From: Owenia fusiformis | Taxonomy: Eukaryota > Annelida > Polychaeta > Sabellida > Oweniidae | Assembly: GCA_903813345.2 (NCBI GenBank) | Contig: CAIIXF020000009.1 | Coordinates: 26,450,740-26,514,739, forward strand | Length of the DNA stretch: 64,000 nucleotides | Direction of reading: 5' to 3' | Part shown: piece by piece, positions 2,912 to 53,001 of the stretch | Layout of the letters: each line of letters opens with the position of its first letter | Position numbering within the stretch: position 1 is the stretch's first letter | Position numbers and translations under genes: made by a program | The notes under the pieces: model-generated | Database searches by the model: none | Told to the model about the DNA's origin: nothing | What the model saw: only the letters and a program-made list of their open reading frames with translations

Positions 2912-4328
2912 GATGAAAATATAAGTTTTTACAAACCGGCTTTATGCACCTGTAACACGTCCAAGTATGGGATAAACACAATTATTTCACTTATAATATC
3001 GTTAAAATGTCAGAAAAATATAGGATATCGACTGTTGCAATCATTAGATGAAATAATGAACTATATTTTCAGTTTGTGGTGACATATTGTAATGGTCTCC
3101 GTTTTTTTTGTGACGGCGGTTGGTGGTTGGCGTCTGTAACAAATTCTAAACTTCCAACAACTTAACAAATACTGTTTAGACTGACTTCATTTTTTCAAAA
3201 TCATCTACAAGTTCTCAGAAGTTCAAATCTGACTTTAGATTTGAGATTTTACCTTCAATGACCTTCTGAAGGTCAAAGGGGGGTTGTATAATTGTGTAAT
3301 ACATCTCAATAATATATCTCATAATAATACATCTTAAAAGATGCCTCGTCTGCCTCTGGCTACGCTAGATCAAATATTTACTGAAATGTGCCTAATTAGA
3401 ACATCTCTTTTTTATCAACTATTATGCATTTATCTCGCGCAAATGATTGCAACCTCGACAATCTTGCTATCAGGTTTATTTCGAAAATTTAAAGCAAATG
3501 TATACAATATTAGGTGTCCATGGCAATAGACATTACAAAATGTTCGAAAATCATCGTCTGCAAATAGGATAATTGGCGCGAAATGAGATTGCGTGATATT
3601 TTTTAGTATCTGTAAAATCGCCATTTGGGCACGATTGGCTACAATTATGTTGTTAAACATAAAACCGAACAAACGATAAAGATTAGATACCGAGACAAAT
3701 GGTTTTCGAGATGAGACTAATTGACTATTTAGGTTATAAATTAAGGAATTCATTTTTTATCAATAATTCGACAAGTTGGAGCCCCTAGAGGATCGGCCCT
3801 TTAATGGGGATCAATTGGTGAAATTCTGAGAGGTTATGATATCCCCATAACTCATATTTAAGATGTGACCGTTGGGTAGACTTAACTACAATTAACATGC
3901 TTGTGGCAAGTTTATGAATACGATAAGTCAAAAATAGTTTAGCAAGTTATTTCCGCACAAATATTTTCTGAACATCCTCCTTCACAAGTTTCAGACTAAT
4001 TATTTTTTAGTATGTGTTGAAAGCTGATAGAAATAACTAAGACCAACATTTGAACACAAAACGGTAACTCTGTTACGTTCCAAGTAGCATGGATCATTGT
4101 GCAACAGCATCTCCACGTCTTTTACTACGTTTTATTGTACGCAATTCTAAAAGTTGCTCTATTTAATTAACTATCGGAGGTATAACTGTATCAAACTTTC
4201 TAAAAGTAATAATGGCAGGGCCAAAGTACACATACACGTAGGCTGTTGTAGAATCCATACATAGTAGGTAATTTAAGATACCTCTAAAGCCGGCCTGTGG
4301 AATTAATGTAAAACATTTTCAAAGTTAT
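2912..4328. other. putative first-intron sequence of receptor copy 1; no exon recognised
   Basis: This is downstream, in the minus-strand sense, of the first receptor exon, so it should be intron if the gene continues leftwards. I looked for TM4-TM7 coding sequence on the minus strand (W in TM4, FxxCWxP, NPxxY) and recognised none. The minus-strand frame at 3430-3753 does not resemble a receptor. Exons too short to stand out cannot be excluded by eye. Confidence 0.4.
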
Positions 4329-4334
4329 ACGTAC
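4329..4334 (-). other. splice donor of receptor copy 1 exon (GTACGT)
   Basis: On the minus strand the exon ends ...GGA ATC GAT CG and continues GTACGTATAA. Taking GTACGT as the donor leaves a phase-2 intron inside the Arg codon of DRY. The other copy has AG followed by GTACGTATG at the identical codon, which supports the choice. Confidence 0.8.
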
Positions 4335-4837
4335 CGATCGATTCCTATGGCCATATTAGTATAGACGCTGACACTGACGCTAAAGACGCTCATGAAGAGC
4401 ACGATCGGGCACATGTACGTACCAAACACCCAGCGTCCAAGCATGGACATCGTGAAAGTAAACGGGATGCAGAAACTCGCCATAAAGATATCACTAATGG
4501 CTAAATTAACAAGAAAAATACTCAAGTCTGTTTTTGAGCGGTGTCCACACAGGAGAACTATGATAACGACAGCGTTCCCAATAATCGCCAAAAGAGTGGA
4601 CGCCGAGTACAAACTCACGAGTACAATCTGTGAAAGCTGATCTACCTCGAGAGGAAATTCAAAATCTTTAAACATAAATGAGAAATTGTGAGTTTCGTTT
4701 GAATAAAAATTTGGATGCAACAAACTGTACATATCATCGGATAAATCCAAATCCATCGGCTTATCATATCCAAATAGCACATTGGCGTTTCTCGTATCAT
4801 TTTCAACATCATATCCAGGCATGCTATAGTTATCCAT
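4335..4837 (-). CDS. neuropeptide-type class A GPCR, first coding exon (copy 1: N-terminus to TM3)
   Basis: Encodes 167 codons plus two bases of a rhodopsin-family receptor. An acidic extracellular N-terminus of about 67 residues carries sequons (NYS, NDT, NET, NFS). TM1 contains the GN motif (AIIGNAVVIIVLL), TM2 reads FLVNLAISDIFMASFC with the conserved Asp, the first extracellular loop has GRWVFG, and TM3 runs from the disulfide Cys in TYMCPIV to GIDR. The start chosen is the ATG at 4837 (MDNYSM): it has a purine at -3 and G at +4 and matches the start of copy 2 (MDNF). An in-frame ATG at 4846 has a weak context. The exon ends in the Arg codon of DRY at a splice donor, an intron position known from many neuropeptide receptors. 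The features resemble the NPY/NPFF/tachykinin-like group, but the ligand cannot be told. TM4-TM7 exons are not recognised in the window, so the entry is partial. Confidence 0.85.
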
Positions 4838-5465
4838 GTCTGTCATATATCTAGAGTCCAAAGTTCAGATTTATTCAACTGTAGTAGTCCTACCAGCTCC
4901 AATAAAACAATATATTTCCATTATCATTATATGATGTCAATCCACCAATCTACAACCCAGTATATGAAACATTTTAATCTAATTAGCCACCGTAAATTTA
5001 TGTCCGAATCGTGAGTTGTAAATTAAATAAGTATAGTATAGTTTTCTTGTTGCACTAGCGAGTTGCTGTGTGGTTGCAATAGAGTGATTGCATCCGATGA
5101 AGAACGCCAGACTTATGCTTAGGCCTAATACTAATTGAAGTAAGACAGATAGCTTAAACTGATTGGGTAATGCAGAGATATTTATATATGTAATAATTAC
5201 ATCGATATTCCACCACATGGTTGCTAATTAAAATAGGGATTAATATGTAAACAAAGCGAATAAAACAATGATAAGTGTCTCCAAGAATCCTTTTATATAA
5301 TATAAGGCAAACTCGCAAGTGAGTGTAGCGTTCACACCGTGGTTTAAACTGAACACAAACGTAATCAAAGTGTCCATCAAAAAGGTGTTCGTCCTTTTGT
5401 TATGGGAATTAAAATTAAAACCATTGCTTGGGTTTATATTTATTACTTCATTTAAATTTACAATA
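4838..5465 (-). other. 5' flank of receptor copy 1, diverged duplicate of 35793-36215
   Basis: Upstream of the start codon this segment shares recognisable blocks with the flank of the second receptor exon, in the same order: AATAGAG followed by GAAGAACG, a block around GATTGG.TAATG, a block around TAATnATTACAT, and GTAAACAAAG. The duplication therefore included upstream DNA that probably carries the 5' UTR or promoter. No TATA box or initiator can be assigned. Element R1 begins about 630 bp upstream of the ATG. Confidence 0.55.
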
Positions 5466-23730: not shown

Positions 23731-23740
23731 ATTTTAATAT

Positions 23741-24829
23741 ATGATTATTTACAAGGAAGTTGCCACTTTGAGAAAACAACTTGTAAATAAGACAGTTTCA
23801 CCCCCAAATGACAATGTGAAATCCCTTCTTATAGGATCATCAATAGTTCGTGACATTGATGAAGCCAAACTGAACAATACGGAAGTTATATGCATACGAG
23901 GAGGAAAGATATCTGACATTCACAAGAAACTACTTACCATGAAGAGGGAGTTTGACCATATATACCTGCAGGTGGGAAGTAATGATTGTTCTGAGAGAGA
24001 AGACGTCAAGCTAATATCAGAAGATTATACCCTCCTAATCCGTACAGCAAAACAGTGTTCCAGTTCTGTCACTGTTTCTAGCGTAACACCGCGCATAGGT
24101 GCTACTCAAACCCAGGAGCGCATTGACCAACTCAATGGTTTCCTCCTTTGCCATTGCCAAAATGAGGATGTAATTTTCAATGACAATGATATCAACTTTC
24201 GGCTCAAGGATGAGTCAATCAACACTGGCTATATATGTGCCGACAAAGTCCACCTTAGTTTTGCAGGCACCAATAGCCTGGCCAAAAACCTCAAACTCAA
24301 AAGGAGTTGTGATGATGTCACCCTACCCAAGAATAAAAGGTTTGACCCTCTGCAGAAAAAATCACAGCAGCAGCCACAGAATAAGCGCCAAACACAGCAA
24401 CACCAGCCCAATGATTCAACAAGTCCAGTGACGCACACCCAAAGTGATATACCCAGACAATCCGGTTATAATAACACACGTAAACCGAGATCGAAGCAGA
24501 CTTATACCCCACAGCAAGAACGCCACTTTATTACTTCATCAAGGGACAATCTTGTATGCCTGAAATGTGGCGAGCCGGGTCATTTATCTGCCTCGTGTTG
24601 GCATCCTAACACAGTGCGGTGCCATTCCTGTCGGGAATTGGGACACAAATCCTCCAGGTGCCCCAAGTCTGAGGTTCCACCATTAATGACCAGACAATTT
24701 GCAAATACCAGAATTGCCAATGAGCGTGCTCCACCAATGACTCATGATTATGATGGTCATTACATTAAGGACTATGGACATGGCAATAATAACTTTAGGA
24801 ATAGATTTGCTGTTCTTGAGCATTATTAG
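23741..24829 (+). CDS. LINE ORF1: SGNH hydrolase domain plus two CCHC zinc knuckles
   Basis: 362 residues. An SGNH/GDSL-type esterase fold occupies about 26-185: GSS (32-34) with the nucleophile Ser, GSND (79-82) with the oxyanion Asn, and DKVH (168-171) with the catalytic Asp and His. A basic, Gln-rich linker follows (about 186-265). Two CX2CX4HX4C knuckles come next (C273-C286 and C294-C307), as in nucleic-acid-binding Gag-like proteins. The family role is RNA binding and assembly of the retrotransposition particle; the esterase role in such ORF1 proteins is unsettled. The apparent start (ATG at 23741) lies within bases copied from the flank, so MIIY is not original sequence and the true N-terminus is lost. 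The frame ends at TAG, directly followed in the same frame by ORF2. Confidence 0.88.
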   Translation: MIIYKEVATLRKQLVNKTVSPPNDNVKSLLIGSSIVRDIDEAKLNNTEVICIRGGKISDIHKKLLTMKREFDHIYLQVGSNDCSEREDVKLISEDYTLLIRTAKQCSSSVTVSSVTPRIGATQTQERIDQLNGFLLCHCQNEDVIFNDNDINFRLKDESINTGYICADKVHLSFAGTNSLAKNLKLKRSCDDVTLPKNKRFDPLQKKSQQQPQNKRQTQQHQPNDSTSPVTHTQSDIPRQSGYNNTRKPRSKQTYTPQQERHFITSSRDNLVCLKCGEPGHLSASCWHPNTVRCHSCRELGHKSSRCPKSEVPPLMTRQFANTRIANERAPPMTHDYDGHYIKDYGHGNNNFRNRFAVLEHY

Positions 24830-27800
24830 ATGTACGGCAATGAGTCAGCCTTACCCCCCAAAATCCAGAAATGTTTTGCCTCACCCCCCTTAAGCCATAA
24901 TAATGTCACTTCTTTAAAACATAGACCTCATAGAAGGTCCAAACGGAAACGCTCTCAGGGTGAATGTTTGAATTTAAAATTTGCTTTTAATAATGTGCAA
25001 AATTTAGGACGGGCTAAACAAAGTGAATTGAAATATCTGCTTGAAAATAATGACATTAAAGTAATGGGCTTAACAGAAACATTTTTCAATGAAAATCGGT
25101 CAATGATGGTAAAAAGTGATAAACATGAATGGGTACATAAAAATAGGGTAAAACGTGAAGGAGGTGGCGTGGGCTTTTTTATTAAGACAAGCAATGAGAT
25201 TAATATTTTGAATGATGACCTATTAAATTCCAAGTCAGACGATTTTGAGAGATACTGGATAAGATTGAGAATTAACGGTGAAACTTTCAGTATCGGTATT
25301 GCATACTATCCTAATGATGGTAAGCATACTGATCTGAGTAACTCACTTACAGATGAACTTATTTCAAACGTGGCCTCGCTAGAGGAATCTGGGGACTTTA
25401 TCATTTTAATGGGAGATTTCAATGGAAGAATAAAGCAATTCTCAAAAGATGGCATTGCTAGCACAAATGGGAAATTGATTGAAATGCTCAGCGAAGTAAC
25501 AGATATGAATATATTAAATCTTTCAAGCAAATGTAATGGTTCTTATACTTGGTTTAGAGGAAGTCAGACTTCAACTATAGATTATGTTTTATGTAATCAA
25601 AGTTTATATGATAAAATGACATCAATGAATATTGATGAAGAATGTGAATATTCTATTGGGAGTGATCATTGTATGATTCTAATTAACTTTGCTTTTGTAA
25701 AACATACCAATCACTCCAGAAAATCTAAAGTAAATCTCGATTGCAATGCTAAGCTTTGGAAAATGAACGACCAGACAAACTGGAAAGCCTTCAAAACAAC
25801 TCTTTCTTCTGAATTTGAACATTGGAATCCTACAGATTTCTCCTCTCCTGAAGAAATGTGGACTGATTGGAGAGAACGCGTTCTCAATGTTGGCAATAAT
25901 GTGATCGGTCATTTTGAAATTTCACAAAAGTATAGAAGCTTTTGGGATGATGAACTGAAAAAACTAATCAAGAGCCGTAAGGAGGCTAGCCAGTTCTGTA
26001 GATACTGGCGTGCCTCAGGTCTTACAGATCTTGATTCTTTCGATGAACTATGGAAAATATATCAAATAAGGAAGGAAAGAGTTCATGTTTATATAAAAGA
26101 CAAAATGGTCAAACGTCATATTAATATTTTGACTAGAAATGCATCCAAAAAATCGTCCAGTTCAAGGTCATACTGGAGAACCCTTAATATGTTTAACAGT
26201 AATAATAACACACCCATAAGAATCCAACATCCTCTCCACCCTGACATAATTGTTGATGATCCAAAACAAGTATCTATTCTAATGAAAGATTATTGGTCAA
26301 AAGTGGGAATAAAAAACAGAAATCAAAAATCGCCTGATTTGACAGCAAATGAAATTAAACACTCTCAAATTCTGGCGAATATGGAATTTAAACTCAGTTC
26401 ACCAAATGAAAATGACTCGGATATCTTTGATCAAGTTATTTTGGACAAGGATGTACTAACAGCCCATTTAAGGCAACTGCCTAATGGTAAAGCAGTGGGC
26501 ACTGACCTTACACCGTATGAATTTTTGAAATATGGGGGCCCCACTATTGTCAACACTTTGCTTCATTTGTTTACAATGTGTAAGACCCATGAATCATTCC
26601 CTGAACAATGGAAAGAAGGTTTATTAAAGCCACTTCATAAAGGTGGCGCAAATGGCTCCTTAGATAATTTTCGAGGTATTTCTATTACCTCTAATGTATT
26701 TAAACTTTTTTGCTCCATAATCAACAAGCAAATGATGGCTTTCTGTGAAGATAAAAATATATTTGGTGACTTCCAAGGAGCGTATAGAATCAAACAACGT
26801 TTAGAAAATCATGTATTCAAACTTAAGTCTCTATGCAGTCTAAGGAAAGATAAAAATCAAAAGACCTACTTGGCTTATTTGGACATTTCAAAGGCCTTTG
26901 ACGTAATGGACAGAGACCTTATGTTCATAAAATTATGGGAGAAAGGTGTCCGCGGTAAATGTTGGAGACTCATAAGAGAAATGTACAGAGGAATAAGGAC
27001 CAAGGTCAAATTATCTAATAATTGTAATGAAAACCTCATAGATAACGACAATAAAAATGGCTCTCAAAATGAAAATAATAATAATAATGGAAATACCCAA
27101 TGGTTTAATACAAAATGTGGAGTCAAACAGGGCTGTACCTTATCAACTACTCTATTTTCAATCGTCATGACTGACCTTCAAGATGAACTTTTAAAATCTG
27201 ATGTAGGTATTACATTTAATAACTCAAAATTCCCTAGCCTCATGTGGGCCGATGATATAGTACTTTTAGGCAATTCTGAAAATGATCTCAATAAGATGCT
27301 CAATGTCACTAATGATTTTGCTATTAAATATGGTTTTAGGTTTAGTGAGAAAAAATCAAAAGTCATGGTTATAGGCAAGAAGATTGATACGAACAAGTTA
27401 TGGAAATTAGGTGATCTCAACTTAAATGAAGTCCAAACCTATAAATATTTAGGTATTCATATTGATCGATCCTTGAAAGATAACTTCCACATAATTGATC
27501 AACAAATTCAAAAGTCAAAGACTCTGAAGAACTTTATTACATTTATACTGAGCAAACATTTAAATGCTAAACGTATTGAATTTGGTAATACGCTTTATAC
27601 AACAAAATTCCTCTCGGGGCTGTTACATGGCTGTGGTGTTTGGGTTACGAATACCAAGACCATCCTTGATAAACTCCGGACAATGCAATATGACATGGCC
27701 AGGGGTATTTTCAATATAAAAAGTACCCCTGCATATGTTGCTATCATTAATGAACTTGGTTGGACACCAATTAAGTACATAGTCCTCAAGCGACAAATCC

Positions 27801-28489
27801 AATATTTTCTCCATTTACAGACTCTTGATCAGGGGTCATTCATAAGATTACTACTAACTAGAATGCAAGAACGATTTGCATGTAACAAATCAAATAGTTG
27901 GAAATATGTCGAGCACATAAATGATATCTTTAAACTGATTGACCTTGAAGGCATTGACAATAACTTAAATACTTTGACAGAAAATTATGAATCTTCTATT
28001 CAGAAGACATGCGACTCCGAGATACAAACTGAAATGAATGGAAAGTCTTCCTTGACACTGTGTAGACAGCTTATTGATCTTAAACATGAAGGTTTACAGT
28101 ACTATTTAAGAAATGATTTTGATTTTGCAAGCGCACGATTAAAATTTCTTGCCCGGACCGGGAAACTAGGTCTTAAAGGTGAAACATATAAATGGGCAAA
28201 TGTACAAGTTAATAGCCCATTATGTGATTTTTGCTCTGATAAAGAAGAGAATATAGAACATAGATTACTATTTTGCTCTAATTTTGCAGGGGAAAGATCC
28301 AAATTTTATAAAATACTTGAGGATAAAATTCCCATACATTTAACAGGGATATTCTTTAGCGCCCCAACTGACACAAAATTGAAATGGTTACTGGGAGATG
28401 AGGCATACATCTTTGGGGGGCACGAATATGGTGTTTTATTCGACTCTTTAGTAAAAAGCTTTTTAAATAAGATTTTAAGTAAATATTAA
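24830..28489 (+). CDS. LINE ORF2: AP-type endonuclease and reverse transcriptase
   Basis: 1219 residues, uninterrupted. Endonuclease at about 45-290: LTETFF, MGDFNGR (194-200), TIDYVL and GSDHCM (277-282) are the Glu, Asp/Asn and Asp-His blocks of the exonuclease-endonuclease-phosphatase fold that nicks the target. Reverse transcriptase at about 540-880: LLKPLHKGG, NFRGISITS, LDISKAFD (catalytic D685), GVKQGCTLSTTLF, MWADDIVLL (catalytic D808-D809) and YKYLGIHI. The box before the catalytic aspartates is WADD where YADD or FADD is usual. A C-terminal CX2CX8HX4C motif (C1132-C1149) follows. It carries out target-primed reverse transcription of the element RNA. The ATG abuts the ORF1 stop (TAGATG) and is in the same frame, so translation by reinitiation or readthrough is likely. 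A short Asn-rich insertion (about residues 725-762) lies between the LDISKAFD and GVKQGC blocks. Confidence 0.93.
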   Translation: MYGNESALPPKIQKCFASPPLSHNNVTSLKHRPHRRSKRKRSQGECLNLKFAFNNVQNLGRAKQSELKYLLENNDIKVMGLTETFFNENRSMMVKSDKHEWVHKNRVKREGGGVGFFIKTSNEINILNDDLLNSKSDDFERYWIRLRINGETFSIGIAYYPNDGKHTDLSNSLTDELISNVASLEESGDFIILMGDFNGRIKQFSKDGIASTNGKLIEMLSEVTDMNILNLSSKCNGSYTWFRGSQTSTIDYVLCNQSLYDKMTSMNIDEECEYSIGSDHCMILINFAFVKHTNHSRKSKVNLDCNAKLWKMNDQTNWKAFKTTLSSEFEHWNPTDFSSPEEMWTDWRERVLNVGNNVIGHFEISQKYRSFWDDELKKLIKSRKEASQFCRYWRASGLTDLDSFDELWKIYQIRKERVHVYIKDKMVKRHINILTRNASKKSSSSRSYWRTLNMFNSNNNTPIRIQHPLHPDIIVDDPKQVSILMKDYWSKVGIKNRNQKSPDLTANEIKHSQILANMEFKLSSPNENDSDIFDQVILDKDVLTAHLRQLPNGKAVGTDLTPYEFLKYGGPTIVNTLLHLFTMCKTHESFPEQWKEGLLKPLHKGGANGSLDNFRGISITSNVFKLFCSIINKQMMAFCEDKNIFGDFQGAYRIKQRLENHVFKLKSLCSLRKDKNQKTYLAYLDISKAFDVMDRDLMFIKLWEKGVRGKCWRLIREMYRGIRTKVKLSNNCNENLIDNDNKNGSQNENNNNNGNTQWFNTKCGVKQGCTLSTTLFSIVMTDLQDELLKSDVGITFNNSKFPSLMWADDIVLLGNSENDLNKMLNVTNDFAIKYGFRFSEKKSKVMVIGKKIDTNKLWKLGDLNLNEVQTYKYLGIHIDRSLKDNFHIIDQQIQKSKTLKNFITFILSKHLNAKRIEFGNTLYTTKFLSGLLHGCGVWVTNTKTILDKLRTMQYDMARGIFNIKSTPAYVAIINELGWTPIKYIVLKRQIQYFLHLQTLDQGSFIRLLLTRMQERFACNKSNSWKYVEHINDIFKLIDLEGIDNNLNTLTENYESSIQKTCDSEIQTEMNGKSSLTLCRQLIDLKHEGLQYYLRNDFDFASARLKFLARTGKLGLKGETYKWANVQVNSPLCDFCSDKEENIEHRLLFCSNFAGERSKFYKILEDKIPIHLTGIFFSAPTDTKLKWLLGDEAYIFGGHEYGVLFDSLVKSFLNKILSKY

Positions 28490-34608: not shown

Positions 34609-35274
34609 AGCAAAATCTTTTCATGATCAATAACAAAATGTGTACTCTTACAGGTAAAGAATCATTAAGACAAAATAATAAAATCTCAATTAAAACAGAA
34701 AAAACATTTACACTCAATCCGCTTGTTGAATCCTGCTCCATTCATGAACATATATGGCGGGATAACTATCTTGATTAAGAAAGAAGCCGAATTCACAGCC
34801 ATTCACAGTCATTTATTTCTTGAGATATCGCAACTTTTATTTCTTGAGATATCTTTATTTTCATTTAAAAAAATGATGTTACTAGAACAGCTCTTAAATG
34901 TCGGGTCGATGAACTTACATGCTACATGCTATGTTACATGCTATGCGTCGCATATTCACTGACCTGTTAAAATTAGTACATTCACGGTCTTCGGAGACAA
35001 TGTAATCACTTGAATTGAAGACAAGAGTCACTCTCAAAATATTGGTTTTCATCAAAAGATGACCCCTAAAGTCAATCTGTCTCCTTTCGACAAAACTTGA
35101 TACACACTCTAAGAGTTTAATAGCAAGCTTTCCAATGGAACCATTGGATAAACAAATGGAACCATGGGATATGATATAATTCTATTGAAGATTTTCAAAT
35201 GACAAAGAAGTTCTTGCATGCTTCTGAGAGGGGTTCTGTGTATTAGAGCGCCTGGGCCTGACACGTTAAAACAT

Positions 35275-35280
35275 ACGTAC
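35275..35280 (-). other. splice donor of receptor copy 2 exon (GTACGT)
   Basis: The minus strand reads ATT GAC AG then GTACGTATG. CAG/AG before GT is a good donor, and the phase equals that of copy 1. The open frame beyond it (YVCFNVSG...) is intron read-through and should not be included in the protein. Confidence 0.85.
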
Positions 35281-35792
35281 CTGTCAATTCCTATAGCCAT
35301 GTTGGTGTAGACGCTGACACTGACGCTAAAGACGCTCATGAAGAGCACGATCGGGCACATGTACGTACCAAACACCCAGCGTCCAAGCATGGACATCGTG
35401 AAAGTAAACGGGATGCAGAAACTCGCCATAAAGATATCACTAATGGCTAAATTAACAAGAAAAATACTCAAGTCTGTTTTTGAGCGGTGTCCACACAGGA
35501 GAACTATGATAACGACAGCGTTCCCAATAATCGCCAAAAGAGTGGACGCCGAGTACAAACTTACAAGTAAAATCTGTGAAAATTGGTCTACTTCCAGGGG
35601 AAATTCGAAGTAGACATCTTTAGAGCTTGATGAGAAATTGTAAGTGTCATTTTCGGGAAAGGTCGGATGTAGCAAACTGTACATATCATTAGATATATTA
35701 AAATGTGTAGCTATGGTATATCCAGTTGGGCTACTAACGTTTCTGCTGTTGTTATCCGTACCATATCCCCAAATCTTTCTAAAGTTATCCAT
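35281..35792 (-). CDS. neuropeptide-type class A GPCR, first coding exon (copy 2: N-terminus to TM3)
   Basis: Encodes 170 codons plus two bases. The N-terminus (about 70 residues) starts MDNFRKIW at an ATG with G at -3 and +4, and carries sequons NNS, NVS, NIS, NDT and NFS. It keeps the words NDMYSLLHP, NFS, FEFPLEVDQ and SQI of copy 1 but is otherwise diverged. TM1 (GNAVVIIVLL), TM2 (NLAISD), GRWVFG, TM3 with MCPIV and IDR are the same as copy 1 apart from a Leu/Val change just before TM1. The exon ends in the DRY Arg codon at a GT donor, phase 2. Orientation and exon structure equal copy 1 at 4335-4837, so the two are a same-strand duplication. No TM4-TM7 exons recognised in the 30 kb that follow on the minus strand; partial entry. 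Confidence 0.87.
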
Positions 35793-36215
35793 TGCTATTT
35801 TAGATTTCAAATCCAAAATCCAGAGTTACGAGCTTTACATCAATCCTTCTTACATTCAGTTTAGTATATACATGTTCTATTTAATCCCAAGAATATTTTT
35901 GAAAATTGATAGCAAAACGATGTCCAACTTGTAGAGTTGTAATGAAGTTAAGTACTGTACGTGTATTGTGCTGCTTCCTCGTTACCTTGTTTAGAGCTTT
36001 TTGCCTTATTAACTGATTTTGTTGTGCGGTAATAGAGATGACTCTCACTGAAGAACGTCTACAAAGGGCTAAGCCCTAATGATTGGATAATGTGACGACA
36101 CTCGTACGTAATGTAATGATTACATTGTTGTTTTATTACATTATTGTTAACTAAAGCAGGAATTAACTTGTAGTTGTAAACAAAGGGGAAAACGATTTTA
36201 GCCCCGCCCTAGATA
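35793..36215 (-). other. 5' flank of receptor copy 2 (duplicate of 4838-5465)
   Basis: Shares ordered blocks with the flank of copy 1 (GGTAATAGAG, GAAGAACG, AAGCCCTAAT, GATTGGATAATG, TAATGATTACATTG, GTAAACAAAG). Likely 5' UTR and promoter region, although no core promoter motif can be fixed. It is bounded upstream by a MITE that copy 1 lacks. Confidence 0.5.
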
Positions 36216-43922: not shown

Positions 43923-44689
43923 TATCACACCAAACTAGTTCTTACCCGTTCTTGCCAGTCCTACGAAAACGTCGTCAAACGGGCTCAATATGTCTAAAAT
44001 AATTAGCTAATTCATTCATAACACCCCAGTCACATTTCCTACGGCGACCTTGCGGTCTATCATTTCTGCGGCCAGTAACATTTCTACGCTCGCCGTGGAA
44101 TTTCTGCGCTCTCATACGTTTGCAGTCACATTTCCCACGGCAGCCGCACGGTGAATTTTAAATGTCTGTTGATAAATAATACTTTTTTCATTTTATTTAC
44201 ATCAGAACAATTTATAAATGTTATTCATAGTGCTAGGATGTAATATCAAATGAAAAGTGATCGTGAAACATTGACAAATAATGATTCAATCTTGTTGAGC
44301 CAATTGATTTCTACGGGGACCTCAGAAATGAACAAATATTATAACTCCGAGTTATAATTTCTACGCCTTCCCTGCGGCCTGTAAAAATCTGCATACGCCG
44401 TACGGAGGCCGCAAGGCGAGCGTAGTTTTTCTACGCTCGCCGCAGAAATTCACCGATTTAATTTACTCGGGGTGGAAAATTTTCTAAGAGGCTCCGTTAA
44501 GGAAAAAATGACTTTTTGAGCTGGATGGAATTTCTGTGTATTTTCTATTCTATTAGGGTGTCCTGCATAAAGGATTTCGCCTGCGAAGCATATAACTCTT
44601 GCGAACATATCTAAATACTGGTCCGAAGCAGACATACCTTGAATTTTTTAGAAAAAATTGGCTAAAAATGGAAACTACAAGAAGTCAAA

Positions 44690-46100
44690 ATGTTCAACTC
44701 AAACAAAGTTGTAGCTATTCTATATCAATATTTTGTGTTATGTAAGGTTTCTCAGATGTTTCAAGACCTTCATTAGTATACTTGTGTCTAGAAATGTGAC
44801 ATTTAAGGACAAAATTTGGCATTTTTAATCATTTTCGCTTTCAGCATTTACATATAGTTCCTTATATCTCAAGTTTAAATGCTGACTGGTTGTTGCTTTT
44901 TTGATTAAATCTGTGCTTGTACATGTGTTCTTCCATTTAAGGTATAGAAAATGTATAGTGGACAACCAATGCTCGTATGAGAGCTTTCAGATCTCCCCTA
45001 CCCCATTTATTATGGAAAATTGCCGAAAAATATGAAAAAATAAAATAACTTGAAATTATAAACTTTAACAAAGTTGTAGCTATTCTATATCAATATTATG
45101 TGTTTTTTAATGTTTTTAAGATATTTCAGAACCTATATCGGTATACAAGTGGCTAGAAATGAGACATTTAAGGACAAAATTTGGCATTTCTTTCTATCAT
45201 TTTCGCTTTCAGCAGTAATATATAGTTCCTCATATCTTGAGTTTTATGCTGTCTGATTGTTGCATTTTCAATCAAATCTGTTTTTGTACATGTGTTCTTC
45301 CATTTAAGGTATAGAAAATGTATAGTAGACAAACAATATTCATATTAGAGCTTTCAGATCTCCCCTACCCCATCAATTATGGAAAATAAACGAGAAATAT
45401 GAAAAAATAAAATAACTTGAAATTATAGACTTTCATGATGTTGTAGCTATTCTATATCAATATAATGTGTTATTTAATGTTTTTCATATTTTTCAGAACT
45501 GTTATTGGTATTCAAGTGGCTAGAAATGAGACTTTAAGGACAAAACTTGGCATTTTTTAATCAATGCTGCTTTTAGCAGTAACATATAGATCCTGATATC
45601 TTGAGTTTTATGCTGACTGGTTGATGCATTTTTGATTAAATCTGTTCTTGTACATGTCTTATTCCATTTAAGGTACTGAAAATGTATAATGGACAAACAA
45701 TGTTCATATATTTTTATTTTTTTTTAAACATATTATTTATTTCATTAGTATACAGGTGTCTAGAAATAAGATAATTAAAGACAAAATATGGCATTTTTGA
45801 TCATTTTCGCTTTCAGCAGTAACATATAGTTCCTTATATCTTGAGTTTAATGTTGACTGGTTGTTGCAATTTTGATCAAATCTGTTCTTGTATATGTCTT
45901 CTTCCATTTCAGATACGAAAAATGTATATTGGACCACCAATGTTCATATTAGAGCTTTCAGATCTCCCCTACCCCATTTATTAGGGAAGATGACCGGAAA
46001 ATATAAAAAAAATAACTTCAAACTACCAGTATAAACTTTAACAAAGATGTAGCCATTCTTTATGTGTTATTGAATGCTATAATTATTTTTTCAGGACCTT
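44690..46100. repeat. 365-bp tandem units, left arm of the 6.65-kb element
   Basis: The word GTAGCTATTCTATATCAATA starts at 44711, 45076 and 45443, with a diverged fourth (GTAGCCATTCTTTATG) at 46049. Each unit also has TCAGATCTCCCCTACCCCAT, ACATTTAAGGACAAAATTTG and TTCCATTTAAGGTATAGAAAATG. The minus-strand frame at 45737-45940 over the array reappears in the other arm; it is a by-product of DNA identity and not a demonstrated gene. Confidence 0.8.
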
Positions 46101-46771
46101 CATTAGTATACTAGTGTTGAGAAATTAGACATTTAAGAACAAAATTTGTAATTTTTCATCAATTTTTCATCATTTCAACTTTTAGCAATAACATATAGGT
46201 CCTTATATCTTGAGTTTTATGCTGATTGGTTGATGAATTCTTGATCAAATCTGTTCTTTTGCCTGCCTACTTTGAAATCAAGGTATTTAAAAATGTATAT
46301 TGGAAAGCCTGTTCAATACTAAGTATTATTTGATATTTTTCAGATGTGTCAGAAACTTCATGAGTATACAAGTCTAAAAATTAGACATTTAAAGTTGAGT
46401 TGCAAATGGGGCGGGTATTCTCTATCTTTATCCATTGGGCTTTTCTGGTTATAATATGTTGCAAACTGCTCATGAATCTATGCAATTATAGTAGAACACT
46501 TGGAATATATTTAAAGTAGTGTGATAATTATAACCAGTGATCAAGCTATGTTGGTTGAATTCCCTCATATCAATTGCAATGTTGTCAAAGACTTGGTGAT
46601 TTCCATATTACACCTAAGTGTGGTGTAATTAGGAAGTTCATGATGGATATTGGGCTTGGGGATATTTTGGTAAATGCAAACATTGTGAAATGAAGAACAG
46701 CCAACAAGATGATTTTGGAAAGTATTTTAAAATAGTAAGCTGTCTTTGCTTTGTGAAGCAATGTTACTGTA

Positions 46772-48950: not shown

Positions 48951-50450
48951 TCTTACATACATTTTCTTTAACTTAATCAAAGAAGACAGATTCAAAATAT
49001 GAATCTATCATCAAAGAATTATAATTGTGGAAAATTATATGCTACTGCTAAATGCAGAATGCTAAAAATGCCAAATTTTAGGCACATGTAATCAAATGAA
49101 GGTTACATTAAATAATACATAGTATTGATAGAGAATAGCTACAATTTTGTTAAAGTTTATGTTTTGAAATTACTTTTTCATTTATATTATAAATGGGGCA
49201 GGGGAGACATGAAAGCTCTAATATCAACATTGGTTGTCAAATATACATTTTTTCTATCCTAAATGGAAGAAGACATGTACAAGAACAGATCTGACCAAGA
49301 ATGCACCAACCAGTCAGCATAAAGCTCAAGATATAGGGACCTATACGTTATTGCTGAAAACGAAAATGAAAAACTGAAAGCTCTACTATGAACATTGGTC
49401 ATCCATTATACATTTTTTATATCTTAAATGAAAGAAGACATCTACAAGAACAAATTTGACTAAGAATGCACCAACCAGTCAGCATTAAACTTAAGATATA
49501 AGGACCTATATGTTATTGCTGAAAGCGAAAATGGTAAAAAAGCCATGTTTTGTCCTTAAATGTCTCATTTCTAGACACTAGTATACCGATAAAGGTTCTG
49601 AAATATCTTAAAACATTAAATAACACATAATATTGATATAGAATAGCTACAACTTTATTAAAGTTTATAGTTTCAAGTTATTTTATATTTTCATATTTTT
49701 CTTATAATTTTTCATTATAAATGGGGTAGGGGAGATCTGAAAGCTCTAATATGACCATTGGTGGTCCACTATACATTTTCTATACCTTAAATGGAAGAAA
49801 ACATCTACAAGAACAGGTTTGATTAAAATTGCAACAACCAGTCAGCATAAAACTCAATATATGAGGAACTATATGTTACTGCCGAAAGCTAAAATGATTT
49901 TAAAAAATGCCAAGTTTTGTCCTTAAATGTCTCATTTCTAGGCACTAGTATACCAATAAAGGTTCTGAAATATCTGAAAAACATTAAATAATACATAATA
50001 TTGATATAGAATAACTACAACATTGTTAAAGTTTATAAATTCAAGTTATTTTACATTTTCATATGTCTCAGTAATTTTTCATAATAAATGGGGTAGGGGA
50101 GATCTGAAAGCTCTAATATGACCATTGGTGGTCCAATATACATTTTTCGTATCTGAAATGGAAGAAGACATATACAAGAACAGATTTGATCAAAATTGCA
50201 ACAACCAGTCAACATTAAACTCAAGATATAACGAACTATATGTTACTGTTGAAAGCGAAAATGATCAAAAATGCCATATTTTGTCTTTAATTATCTTATT
50301 TCTAGACACCTGTACACTAATGAAGGTCCTTAAACATCTGAAAAACATTAAATAATACATAGTGTTAATATTAAATAGCTTGAGTTTTGTTTGAGTTGAA
50401 CATTTTGACTTTTTGTAGTTTCCATTTTTAGCCTATTTTTTCTAAAAAAT
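48951..50450. repeat. 365-bp tandem units, right (inverted) arm of the 6.65-kb element
   Basis: Inverted counterparts of the left-arm units: ATTGATATAGAATAGCTACA-type words occur near 49127, 49632 and 49998; ATGGGGTAGGGGAGATCTGA near 49722 and 50090; AAATGGAAGAAGACAT several times. The plus-strand frame at 50125-50355 equals the minus-strand frame of the left arm almost residue by residue, because the DNA is nearly the same. Confidence 0.8.
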
Positions 50451-51131
50451 TCAAGGTATGTCTTCTTCGGACCAATATTTAGATATGTTCGCAAGAGTTC
50501 TATGCTTCGCAGGCGAAATCCCTTATGCAGGAAACCCTAATAAAATGAAAAATACAGAGAAACTCCATCCAGCTCACAAAGTCATTTTTTGCACAATTCT
50601 CACACCTTCAACCCCGAATAATTGATCTGCGGTCGACTTGCGGCCGCCGTGCGACAAATGTGACTGGGGTGTAAACAGTCTTCAATACGTCCATCTCATT
50701 CATTCGCAGTTCGTTCAGGTCGCACCACGTCGGTGTGCAACGTCCGCGTCCCTTAGTCTAGAAGGTCATCATGACCTGATTACAGAACGGTATGGTCGCC
50801 ATCGAATTTTGAATCGATTCAAAATTCTAAATCACAGTCCCCGTCCGGGAAAGTCCATGAAGTTCGTAAACAGACCGTAGAACGTTGTAGCTACGTTCAT
50901 TCCGTTCGCACACAGTTTAAAACCAGTTTTGAAGAACGCAGTGGCAACTTGTTTGGTGTGATAGCTATATTTTTGCTAACTCGTTCATAAGCAGTCTTTA
51001 ATACGTTCTTAATCAGTTTAAACCCATTTGCAATTAATTCTATCTCGTTCTCAATACGTCTTCAGACAGTTCAACTCGTTGTTAAAACGTCCCTAGTAGG
51101 ATTGTAGTACGACGGTTCCGTTCGTAGTACG

Positions 51132-53001
51132 TCCAGCTCGTCGTTAGTACGTTGTCACTCGTTCTAATTGTAAAACGTGACGACCACGAGAACATTTTGA
51201 GCATGTTCTAAGTTCTAGAGGATCTACCCGTTCGAGTACGTTCGATGAAGTTTGTAAATAGACCCTAAACGGTTCTAAATAAGTCCAGTCCGTTCGTGCA
51301 CAGTTGAAGCCCGTTTTCGAGAACGTAGTGAGAACTAGTTTGGTGTGATAGTAGGGTTAATTAGAGGAGCCATAACATTGTACTCTCTGTCAAGTTAAGA
51401 TATAAGTGAAGTTCAAAAATTCAAAATCTCTGAAGCTAGTTCTCCTATGATAAAACAAAAAATTGATATGAATCATGGGGTTTCAATAGAAGGGTAGGCA
51501 ACTTCCAATATTTCATACACAAGCGTTGTCTTGGATTTTCAAAATTGGAGAAGAAATGCTTCCTGCACACATTCAAAAGAACATCTTGTTTTGTGCTTTC
51601 ATGTATGATTTTAAGAATTAACCAAAAAGTAAAAACATGATTATCTGCATATATGTTGATTATTCAATAGAAAATGGAATCCATGATAATTATGGCAATA
51701 ATGAACATTCTCCCACAAATTATATTTTTTATTTGGAATGTGTTCTTGAATAATTCCAGCTCGTCGTTAGTACGTTGTCACTCGTTCTAATTGTAAAACG
51801 TGACGACCACGAGAACATTTTGAGCATGTTCTAAGTTCTAGAGGATCTACCCGTTCGAGTACGTTCGATGAAGTTTGTAAATAGACCCTAAACGGTTCTA
51901 AATAAGTCCAGTCCGTTCGTGCACAGTTGAAGCCCGTTTTCGAGAACGTAGTGAGAACTAGTTTGGTGTGATAGTAGGGTTAATTAGAGGAGCCATAACA
52001 TTGTACTCTCTGTCAAGTTAAGATATAAGTGAAGTTCAAAAATTCAAAATCTCTGAAGCTAGTTCTCCTATGATAAAACAAAAAATTGATATGAATCATG
52101 GGGTTTCAATAGAAGGGTAGGCAACTTCCAATATTTCATACACAAGCGTTGTCTTGGATTTTCAAAATTGGAGAAGAAATGCTTCCTGCACACATTCAAA
52201 AGAACATCTTGTTTTGTGCTTTCATGTATGATTTTAAGAATTAACCAAAAAGTAAAAACATGATTATCTGCATATATGTTGATTATTCAATAGAAAATGG
52301 AATCCATGATAATTATGGCAATAATGAACATTCTCCCACAAATTATATTTTTTATTTGGAATGTGTTCTTGAATAATTCCAGCTCGTCGTTAGTACGTTG
52401 TCACTCGTTCTAATTGTAAAACGTGACGACCACGAGAACATTTTGAGCATGTTCTAAGTTCTAGAGGATCTACCCGTTCGAGTACGTTCGATGAAGTTTG
52501 TAAATAGACCCTAAACGGTTCTAAATAAGTCCAGTCCGTTCGTGCACAGTTGAAGCCCGTTTTCGAGAACGTAGTGAGAACTAGTTTGGTGTGATAGTAG
52601 GGTTAATTAGAGGAGCCATAACATTGTACTCTCTGTCAAGTTAAGATATAAGTGAAGTTCAAAAATTCAAAATCTCTGAAGCTAGTTCTCCTATGATAAA
52701 ACAAAAAATTGATATGAATCATGGGGTTTCAATAGAAGGGTAGGCAACTTCCAATATTTCATACACAAGCGTTGTCTTGGATTTTCAAAATTGGAGAAGA
52801 AATGCTTCCTGCACACATTCAAAAGAACATCTTGTTTTGTGCTTTCATGTATGATTTTAAGAATTAACCAAAAAGTAAAAACATTATTATCTGCATATAT
52901 GTTGATTATTCAATAGAAAATGGAATCCATGATAATTATGGCAATAATGAACATTCTCCCACAAATTATATTTTTTATTTGGAATGTGTTCTTGAATAAT
53001 T
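51132..53001. repeat. 623-bp tandem triplication
   Basis: TCCAGCTCGTCGTTAGTACG begins at 51132, 51755 and 52378; the period is 623 bp and three units end at 53001. The units are almost identical; the one difference I noticed is G to T at 52885 in the third. Each unit contains the last about 220 bp of element R2, with its right terminus AGAACTAGTTTGGTGTGATA, plus about 400 bp of flanking AT-rich DNA. The duplication therefore happened after R2 inserted, and very recently. Confidence 0.9.

Follow-up and report, generated by a model that had tools for sequence, protein, structure and literature searches.

Probable gene conversion between putative twin first exons of a class A peptide-receptor gene in Owenia fusiformis

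Combinations of constant exons with variable first exons, or with large exons at the 5' side, are already known from the protocadherins, UGT1 and Gr39a, and conversion in such exons has been described as well. For the variable exons of the fugu protocadherins, a homogenised 3' part and a diverged 5' part are reported and read as regional gene conversion, with GC3 values of 54-69% in the homogenised part compared to 38-45% (PMC1852091). The protocadherin cluster of the anole is reported to undergo conversion at low frequency, hence the process is not universal in protocadherin clusters (PMC2764143), and the account given for UGT1 assigns gene conversion no predominant role (PMC1885805). Tandem exon substitutions are described as enriched in ion channels, in a study whose main text does not contain the terms GPCR, G protein-coupled or gene conversion (PMC9741552). 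No class A GPCR with duplicated first exons bearing transmembrane helices, or with conversion between such exons, was found among the best-ranked titles and abstracts of a literature search, which is weak evidence.

The window, i.e. the whole stretch of 64,000 nucleotides of Owenia fusiformis DNA analysed here, contains two homologous exons, termed 1a and 1b, which share with the fugu protocadherins the arrangement as tandem variable exons with putative constant exons, the diverged outer ectodomain and a discrete boundary to a homogenised 3' part (PMC1852091). The reading preferred here, gene conversion between two alternative first exons within a single class A peptide-receptor gene, is given a probability of roughly 0.75 for both of its parts together.

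Both exons are encoded on the minus strand. The coding part of exon 1a (4335..4837) starts with the ATG at 4837 (MDN), encodes an extracellular tail and the transmembrane helices TM1 to TM3 and ends within the DRY motif in phase 2. That of exon 1b (35281..35792, ATG at 35792) likewise comprises an extracellular tail and TM1 to TM3, and both exons match PF00001. The start codon is located at the same aligned position (MDN) in both; a second in-frame ATG is present three codons upstream of 4837 in exon 1a, and the start at 4837 is an assumption resting on the MDN shared with exon 1b. The diverged tails, including the start of TM1, extend over 4616..4837 and 35562..35792 (minus strand) and carry N-glycosylation sequons at positions 3, 13, 47 and 51 in tail 1a and at positions 14, 18, 32, 48 and 52 in tail 1b. 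The predicted proteins are distinguished by their tails and by two residues just before the tract described below, the recovered part being otherwise identical. At the other end, a splice donor follows each exon (GTACGTAT; minus strand, 4327..4334 for exon 1a and 35273..35280 for exon 1b), with the eight intron bases common to both.

Within these exons, bases 4362-4615 and 35308-35561 (minus strand, TM1 to TM3) are identical at 254 of 254 positions in a direct comparison at an offset of 30946, exactly as the first-pass annotation of this DNA had stated. When the assembly, 498 Mb in 525 contigs, was searched with the tract as DNA query, these two loci were the only ones listed. On the donor side, the tract is followed by 27 exon bases (4335-4361 and 35281-35307, minus strand), of which seven differ, and the earlier claim that all seven are synonymous holds. 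For the seventh (position 4336, CG vs AG, where the intron interrupts an Arg codon), this applies if both exons join exon 2, since the putative common exon 2 begins with A. On the N-terminal side, 14 of the 53 adjoining bases differ. The codon alignment, from the MDN start to the donor, comprises 167 codons, not counting the interrupted Arg codon and three columns with gaps; residues differ in 33 of them, every one located in the N-terminal part (33 of its 74 aligned codons), and none of the 84 core codons of the tract shows a residue change. The sharp edges and the diverged N-terminus described previously are confirmed, with the refinement that divergence on the N-terminal side is graded rather than abruptly unalignable, with about 74% identity across the first 53 bp and gaps thereafter. 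At the offset of 30946, neither the introns nor the outer flanks can be aligned between the copies, and blastn found no match between the two introns within 4.3 kb. Since the introns do not align over this distance, the exon duplication is regarded as old.

An exon for the remaining helices, TM4 to TM7, was not found in the window or the 9 kb flanking each of its ends by tblastn with the frames of three related receptor loci (L005, L006 and L007), where the sole match was at chance level (E 0.29, covering the final 39 residues of the L006 frame). Searches of the genome located such exons further downstream: exon 2 (TM4-6) at C9:26401698-26402049 on the minus strand and exon 3 (TM6-7) at C9:26400724-26400948, just below exon 2 and on the same strand as exons 1a and 1b. 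Measured downstream, exon 2 is 53 kb away from exon 1a and 84 kb from exon 1b; the implied introns of 53,024 and 83,970 bp are long, though not impossible, which counts against the joins. With exon 2 as query, 34 matches were obtained in 498 Mb, none of which apart from exon 2 itself exceeds 39% identity; the best-scoring of the others is L005, with 36%. The best other match of exon 3 is 60% identical and probably part of the L005 gene, since it is located 17 kb from L005. No second copy of exon 2 or 3 was found within 132 kb, reaching from below exons 2 and 3 to above the window and containing 0 N. The idea that the window holds two complete receptor genes was rejected, as these searches found no TM4-7 exon there and a single one in the 132 kb.

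The junctions fit a common exon 2. Exon 1a ends with GAT CG and exon 1b with GAC AG, and the first base of exon 2 is A, giving CGA and AGA; because exon 2 begins with A, the split codon would encode the Arg of the DRY motif in both joins. The donor phase is identical in both exons and in frame with exon 2, and joining yields open frames of 360 and 363 aa, with DRYW in both. A C-terminal exon probably follows exon 3, because the frame of the latter meets a stop six codons beyond a donor-like GTATGT; its likely donor is placed at C9:26400723.

The DRY motif at the end of TM3 and the NPxxY motif in TM7 are marks of class A receptors. Here, GIDRYW spans the junction of exons 1 and 2, and NPIIY is encoded in exon 3. 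The joined exons 1a, 2 and 3 match PF00001 over positions 1-260 of 260 (E 1.1e-60) and also pass the cut-off for Srsx (PF10320), far more weakly (E 7.9e-09); the query used for both held one extra V and six read-through residues, which were corrected for the later joined frames. The best solved relatives in a PDB search are the receptors for prolactin-releasing peptide, orexin, neurokinin and NPY, none of which stands out as a single best subfamily; the joined protein matches the prolactin-releasing peptide receptor over most of its length (E 3.7e-50). TM1 to TM3 of exons 1a and 1b form a close pair in the genome, with the next-nearest relative at 53% identity. The nearest paralogue, L005 (53% identical in the protein core), is encoded 1.8 Mb away on the same chromosome and carries TM1 to TM6 in one exon. 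The L005/L025/L037 loci (C9:24652627-24653289, C9:24635221-24635436) have no intron at the DRY motif, and TM6-7 are probably encoded in a separate exon. Since L005 lacks an intron there, the DRY intron was probably gained or lost between L005 and the gene with exons 1a and 1b. About 20 kb below exons 2 and 3, two further receptor-like frames on opposite strands (C9:26378895-26381056, L020) were detected, for which reason receptor genes may be loosely clustered in this region.

Several other features of the window are recorded as observations in their own right. The intron between exons 1b and 1a harbors a two-ORF LINE (23738-28489, plus strand), whose ORF1 matches a zinc knuckle and, below threshold, OSK, and whose ORF2 is an unbroken frame of 1219 aa containing an endonuclease and a reverse-transcriptase domain. 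At 51132-52677, a sequence of at least 300 nt occurs three times with 100% identity and at an exact spacing of 623. Tandem units of about 365 nt form two arrays (44503-46273 and 49177-50590), arranged as facing inverted repeats with 80-96% complementarity.

Upstream of both start codons, a promoter-like non-coding block of approximately 100 nt is conserved (5160..5256 for copy a, 36080..36185 for copy b, both minus strand), located 323-419 bases before the ATG of exon 1a and 288-393 bases before that of exon 1b. Local alignment of the 600 bp before the starts scored 48, the highest score among 300 dinucleotide shuffles being 31, and the main part of the block is the sole blastn match in 5 kb upstream (E 1.4e-4). 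It contains the motifs CCAATCA and TGTTTAC and the palindrome ATGTAATTATTACAT / ATGTAATCATTACAT, which we take to represent a CCAAT box and a forkhead- or homeodomain-like site. The 350 bp nearest to the start codons show marginal similarity only, the score being reached by 13 of 300 shuffles, which speaks against a duplicated promoter. The possibility of a dispersed repeat was rejected, as copy b used as DNA query against the genome matched itself only; this search also missed copy a and has little power for diverged copies. A duplicated putative promoter is the simplest reading of the block, and exons 1a and 1b are read as alternative first exons because of it.

Taken with the single matching exon 2 and exon 3 at the sensitivity of these searches, the in-frame joins and the common strand, on which the one-gene model is based, exons 1a and 1b are likely to be alternative first exons belonging to one class A peptide-receptor gene, the splicing being predicted from the sequence. 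The first-pass annotation had referred to paralogues, but an assignment to two paralogous receptor genes is not favoured: with a single TM4-7 part outside the window and matching phases, they most likely belong to one gene.

A rather unlikely variant of the one-gene model takes both exons as mutually exclusive internal exons, served by one promoter upstream of both and picked by splicing, in the manner of the Dscam arrays, which are internal exons with the choice made by splicing. The homology of the tandem exons and their identical donor phase would fit this arrangement. Candidate acceptors before the start codons contain up to 11 of 16 pyrimidines and are, by this crude count, no worse than the acceptor preceding exon 2 (9 of 16; 13 of 16 for exon 3); since the count does not discriminate, acceptor strength was dropped as a test of first versus internal exons. 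The start codon at the same aligned position of both exons and the conserved block some 290-420 bases upstream speak against internal exons.

It is unlikely that two receptor genes are present, with the TM4-7 part of exon 1b missing, unassembled or too diverged to be found, or that exon 1b is a dead partial copy; the tract would be due to conversion in this case as well. Gene models at the sequence level leave room for such an arrangement, as does a genome search that scores the best candidates only and stops short of proving the absence of a second TM4-7 part. Against it stand the 39% identity limit among the other exon 2 matches in the genome and the 132 kb free of N and of any further copy. 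Exon 1b does not look dead, because its frame is open, its donor intact, its 3' changes are silent only and its upstream block is conserved. Moreover, its AG end gives Arg only before A or G, and exon 2 supplies the A.

The case for conversion between the alternative first exons is carried by the silent sites, counted as codons for the same residue with a degenerate code (Met and Trp omitted). None of the 78 informative codons in the tract differs silently, compared to 19 of 47 elsewhere in the exon (Fisher 5e-10), the latter comprising 13 of 39 in the N-terminal part and 6 of 8 at the 3' end; restricted to neighbouring codons, the comparison is 14 of 24 to 0 of 78. With 19 silent changes distributed among 125 codons, an unchanged run of 78 was reached in 0 of 200,000 shuffles, a test that removes residue constraint and assumes a single silent rate along the exon. 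From 0 of 78, the 95% upper bound for silent change in the tract is 3.8% per informative codon.

The tract also differs in GC3, with 50 of 84 codons ending in G or C compared to 81 of 199 in exons 2 and 3 (a count that takes in seven codons probably past the donors) and 55 of 151 in the two N-tails. This rise, 59.5% compared to 36% here, is similar to that described for the fugu protocadherins (PMC1852091). When residue-matched codons were drawn from the remainder of the gene (with corrected exon ends), 50 GC-ending codons were reached in 0 of 20,000 draws. Compared to TM1-3 of other receptors in the genome, codon-matched, the elevation is modest (P 0.016; 0 of 17 as high); 18 loci were tried, of which L018 was dropped for lack of a usable frame, and in L011 the stretch was misplaced by the motif, leaving 16 sound ones. 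The GC3 of the nine unconverted 3' codons (0.556 in exon 1b, 0.333 in exon 1a) counts against the argument. Raised GC3 is a mark of repeated conversion.

Judged from the sequence, the best explanation of the 254-bp tract is very likely gene conversion. The first-pass annotation had proposed the same, and its reading is supported by the silent-site statistics, the sharp edges inside one exon, the non-aligning introns and, modestly, the raised GC3. Purifying selection at the DNA level (splicing enhancers, RNA structure or an overlapping code) might have frozen the 254 bp without conversion, which is considered quite improbable. Protein constraint is evident in both exons from the unchanged residues of the core and the silent-only changes of the 3' codons, and an open antisense frame of 100 aa (35311-35613, plus strand), taken as chance, covers most of the tract in exon 1b. 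However, such selection would have to freeze all 78 informative codons and yet free six of the next eight, and the protein core, 53% identical to L005, does not evolve particularly slowly between paralogues. RNA structure as the cause of the silent conservation was rejected: folding is unremarkable (z -0.33 and -1.15), and no Rfam family reaches the gathering score in the window.

A recent duplication of the whole segment was rejected as well, the introns being unalignable over 4.3 kb and the 5 kb upstream aligning in one short block. Conversion mediated by cDNA appears less likely, as judged from the end of the tract 27 bp before the end of the exon. An artefact of assembly or polishing, or an uncollapsed second haplotype, is most improbable, as the unalignable flanks argue against alleles, polishing would not be expected to create 254 bp of identity between exons otherwise so different, and the 132 kb around the locus contain 0 N.

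According to the mechanism proposed, an exon and its promoter would have been duplicated long ago, and the copies would have diverged. Later, and perhaps comparatively recently, conversion would have copied at least 254 bp, spanning TM1-TM3, from one of the exons into its twin. Today, the distal exon 1b and the proximal exon 1a on the minus strand, each with its own start codon and putative own promoter, would both be spliced to a single exon 2 (TM4-6) and a single exon 3 (TM6-7), which are located over 50 kb further downstream. Tail 1a or 1b would be selected by the choice of promoter or, with lower probability, by splicing, while exons 2 and 3 supply TM4-7. By erasing differences in TM1-3, conversion would keep helix packing matched to the common TM4-7, which is the probable selective reason. 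The diverged tail probably tunes ligand binding, or each putative promoter tunes expression.

It is conceivable, albeit doubtful, that the gene works as a GPCR counterpart of a small protocadherin cluster, in which promoter choice, conversion-uniform TM1-3 and tails kept apart by selection yield two receptors specific for ligand or cell type. If this were true, the locus would represent a natural tail-swap experiment, providing two receptors with one signalling body. Should the gene model hold, evolution would have changed little but the outer tail, with the helices kept constant by conversion, and a comparison of the isoforms would be a direct test of the part played by the N-tail in ligand choice of class A peptide receptors. 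The locus would also show conversion at work between alternative exons of one gene, an arrangement that annotation could misread as a near-identical gene pair or as one gene with a broken fragment beside it.

Gustatory receptors of insects are not counted among the class A GPCRs. For Gr39a of Drosophila and further gustatory receptor loci with alternative splicing, several large 5' exons are described, each of which can be joined to the same small 3' exons; six helices are encoded by the variable exon and one by the shared exons in Gr39a, compared to three and four at the locus described here (PMC2204066). Dscam is similar in having duplicated tandem exons in one gene, subject there to mutually exclusive splicing (PMC3236188). 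UGT1, as described, shares the tandem variable first exons with their own promoters and the common downstream exons, but encodes enzymes and follows birth-and-death evolution (PMC1885805, PMC3325998). Protocadherins differ in being cell-adhesion proteins with dozens of variable exons, whereas two exons of a seven-helix receptor are present here. Unlike in protocadherins, the common exons of this locus would encode half of the helix bundle, and the likeness is one of arrangement, with no homology of the proteins claimed.
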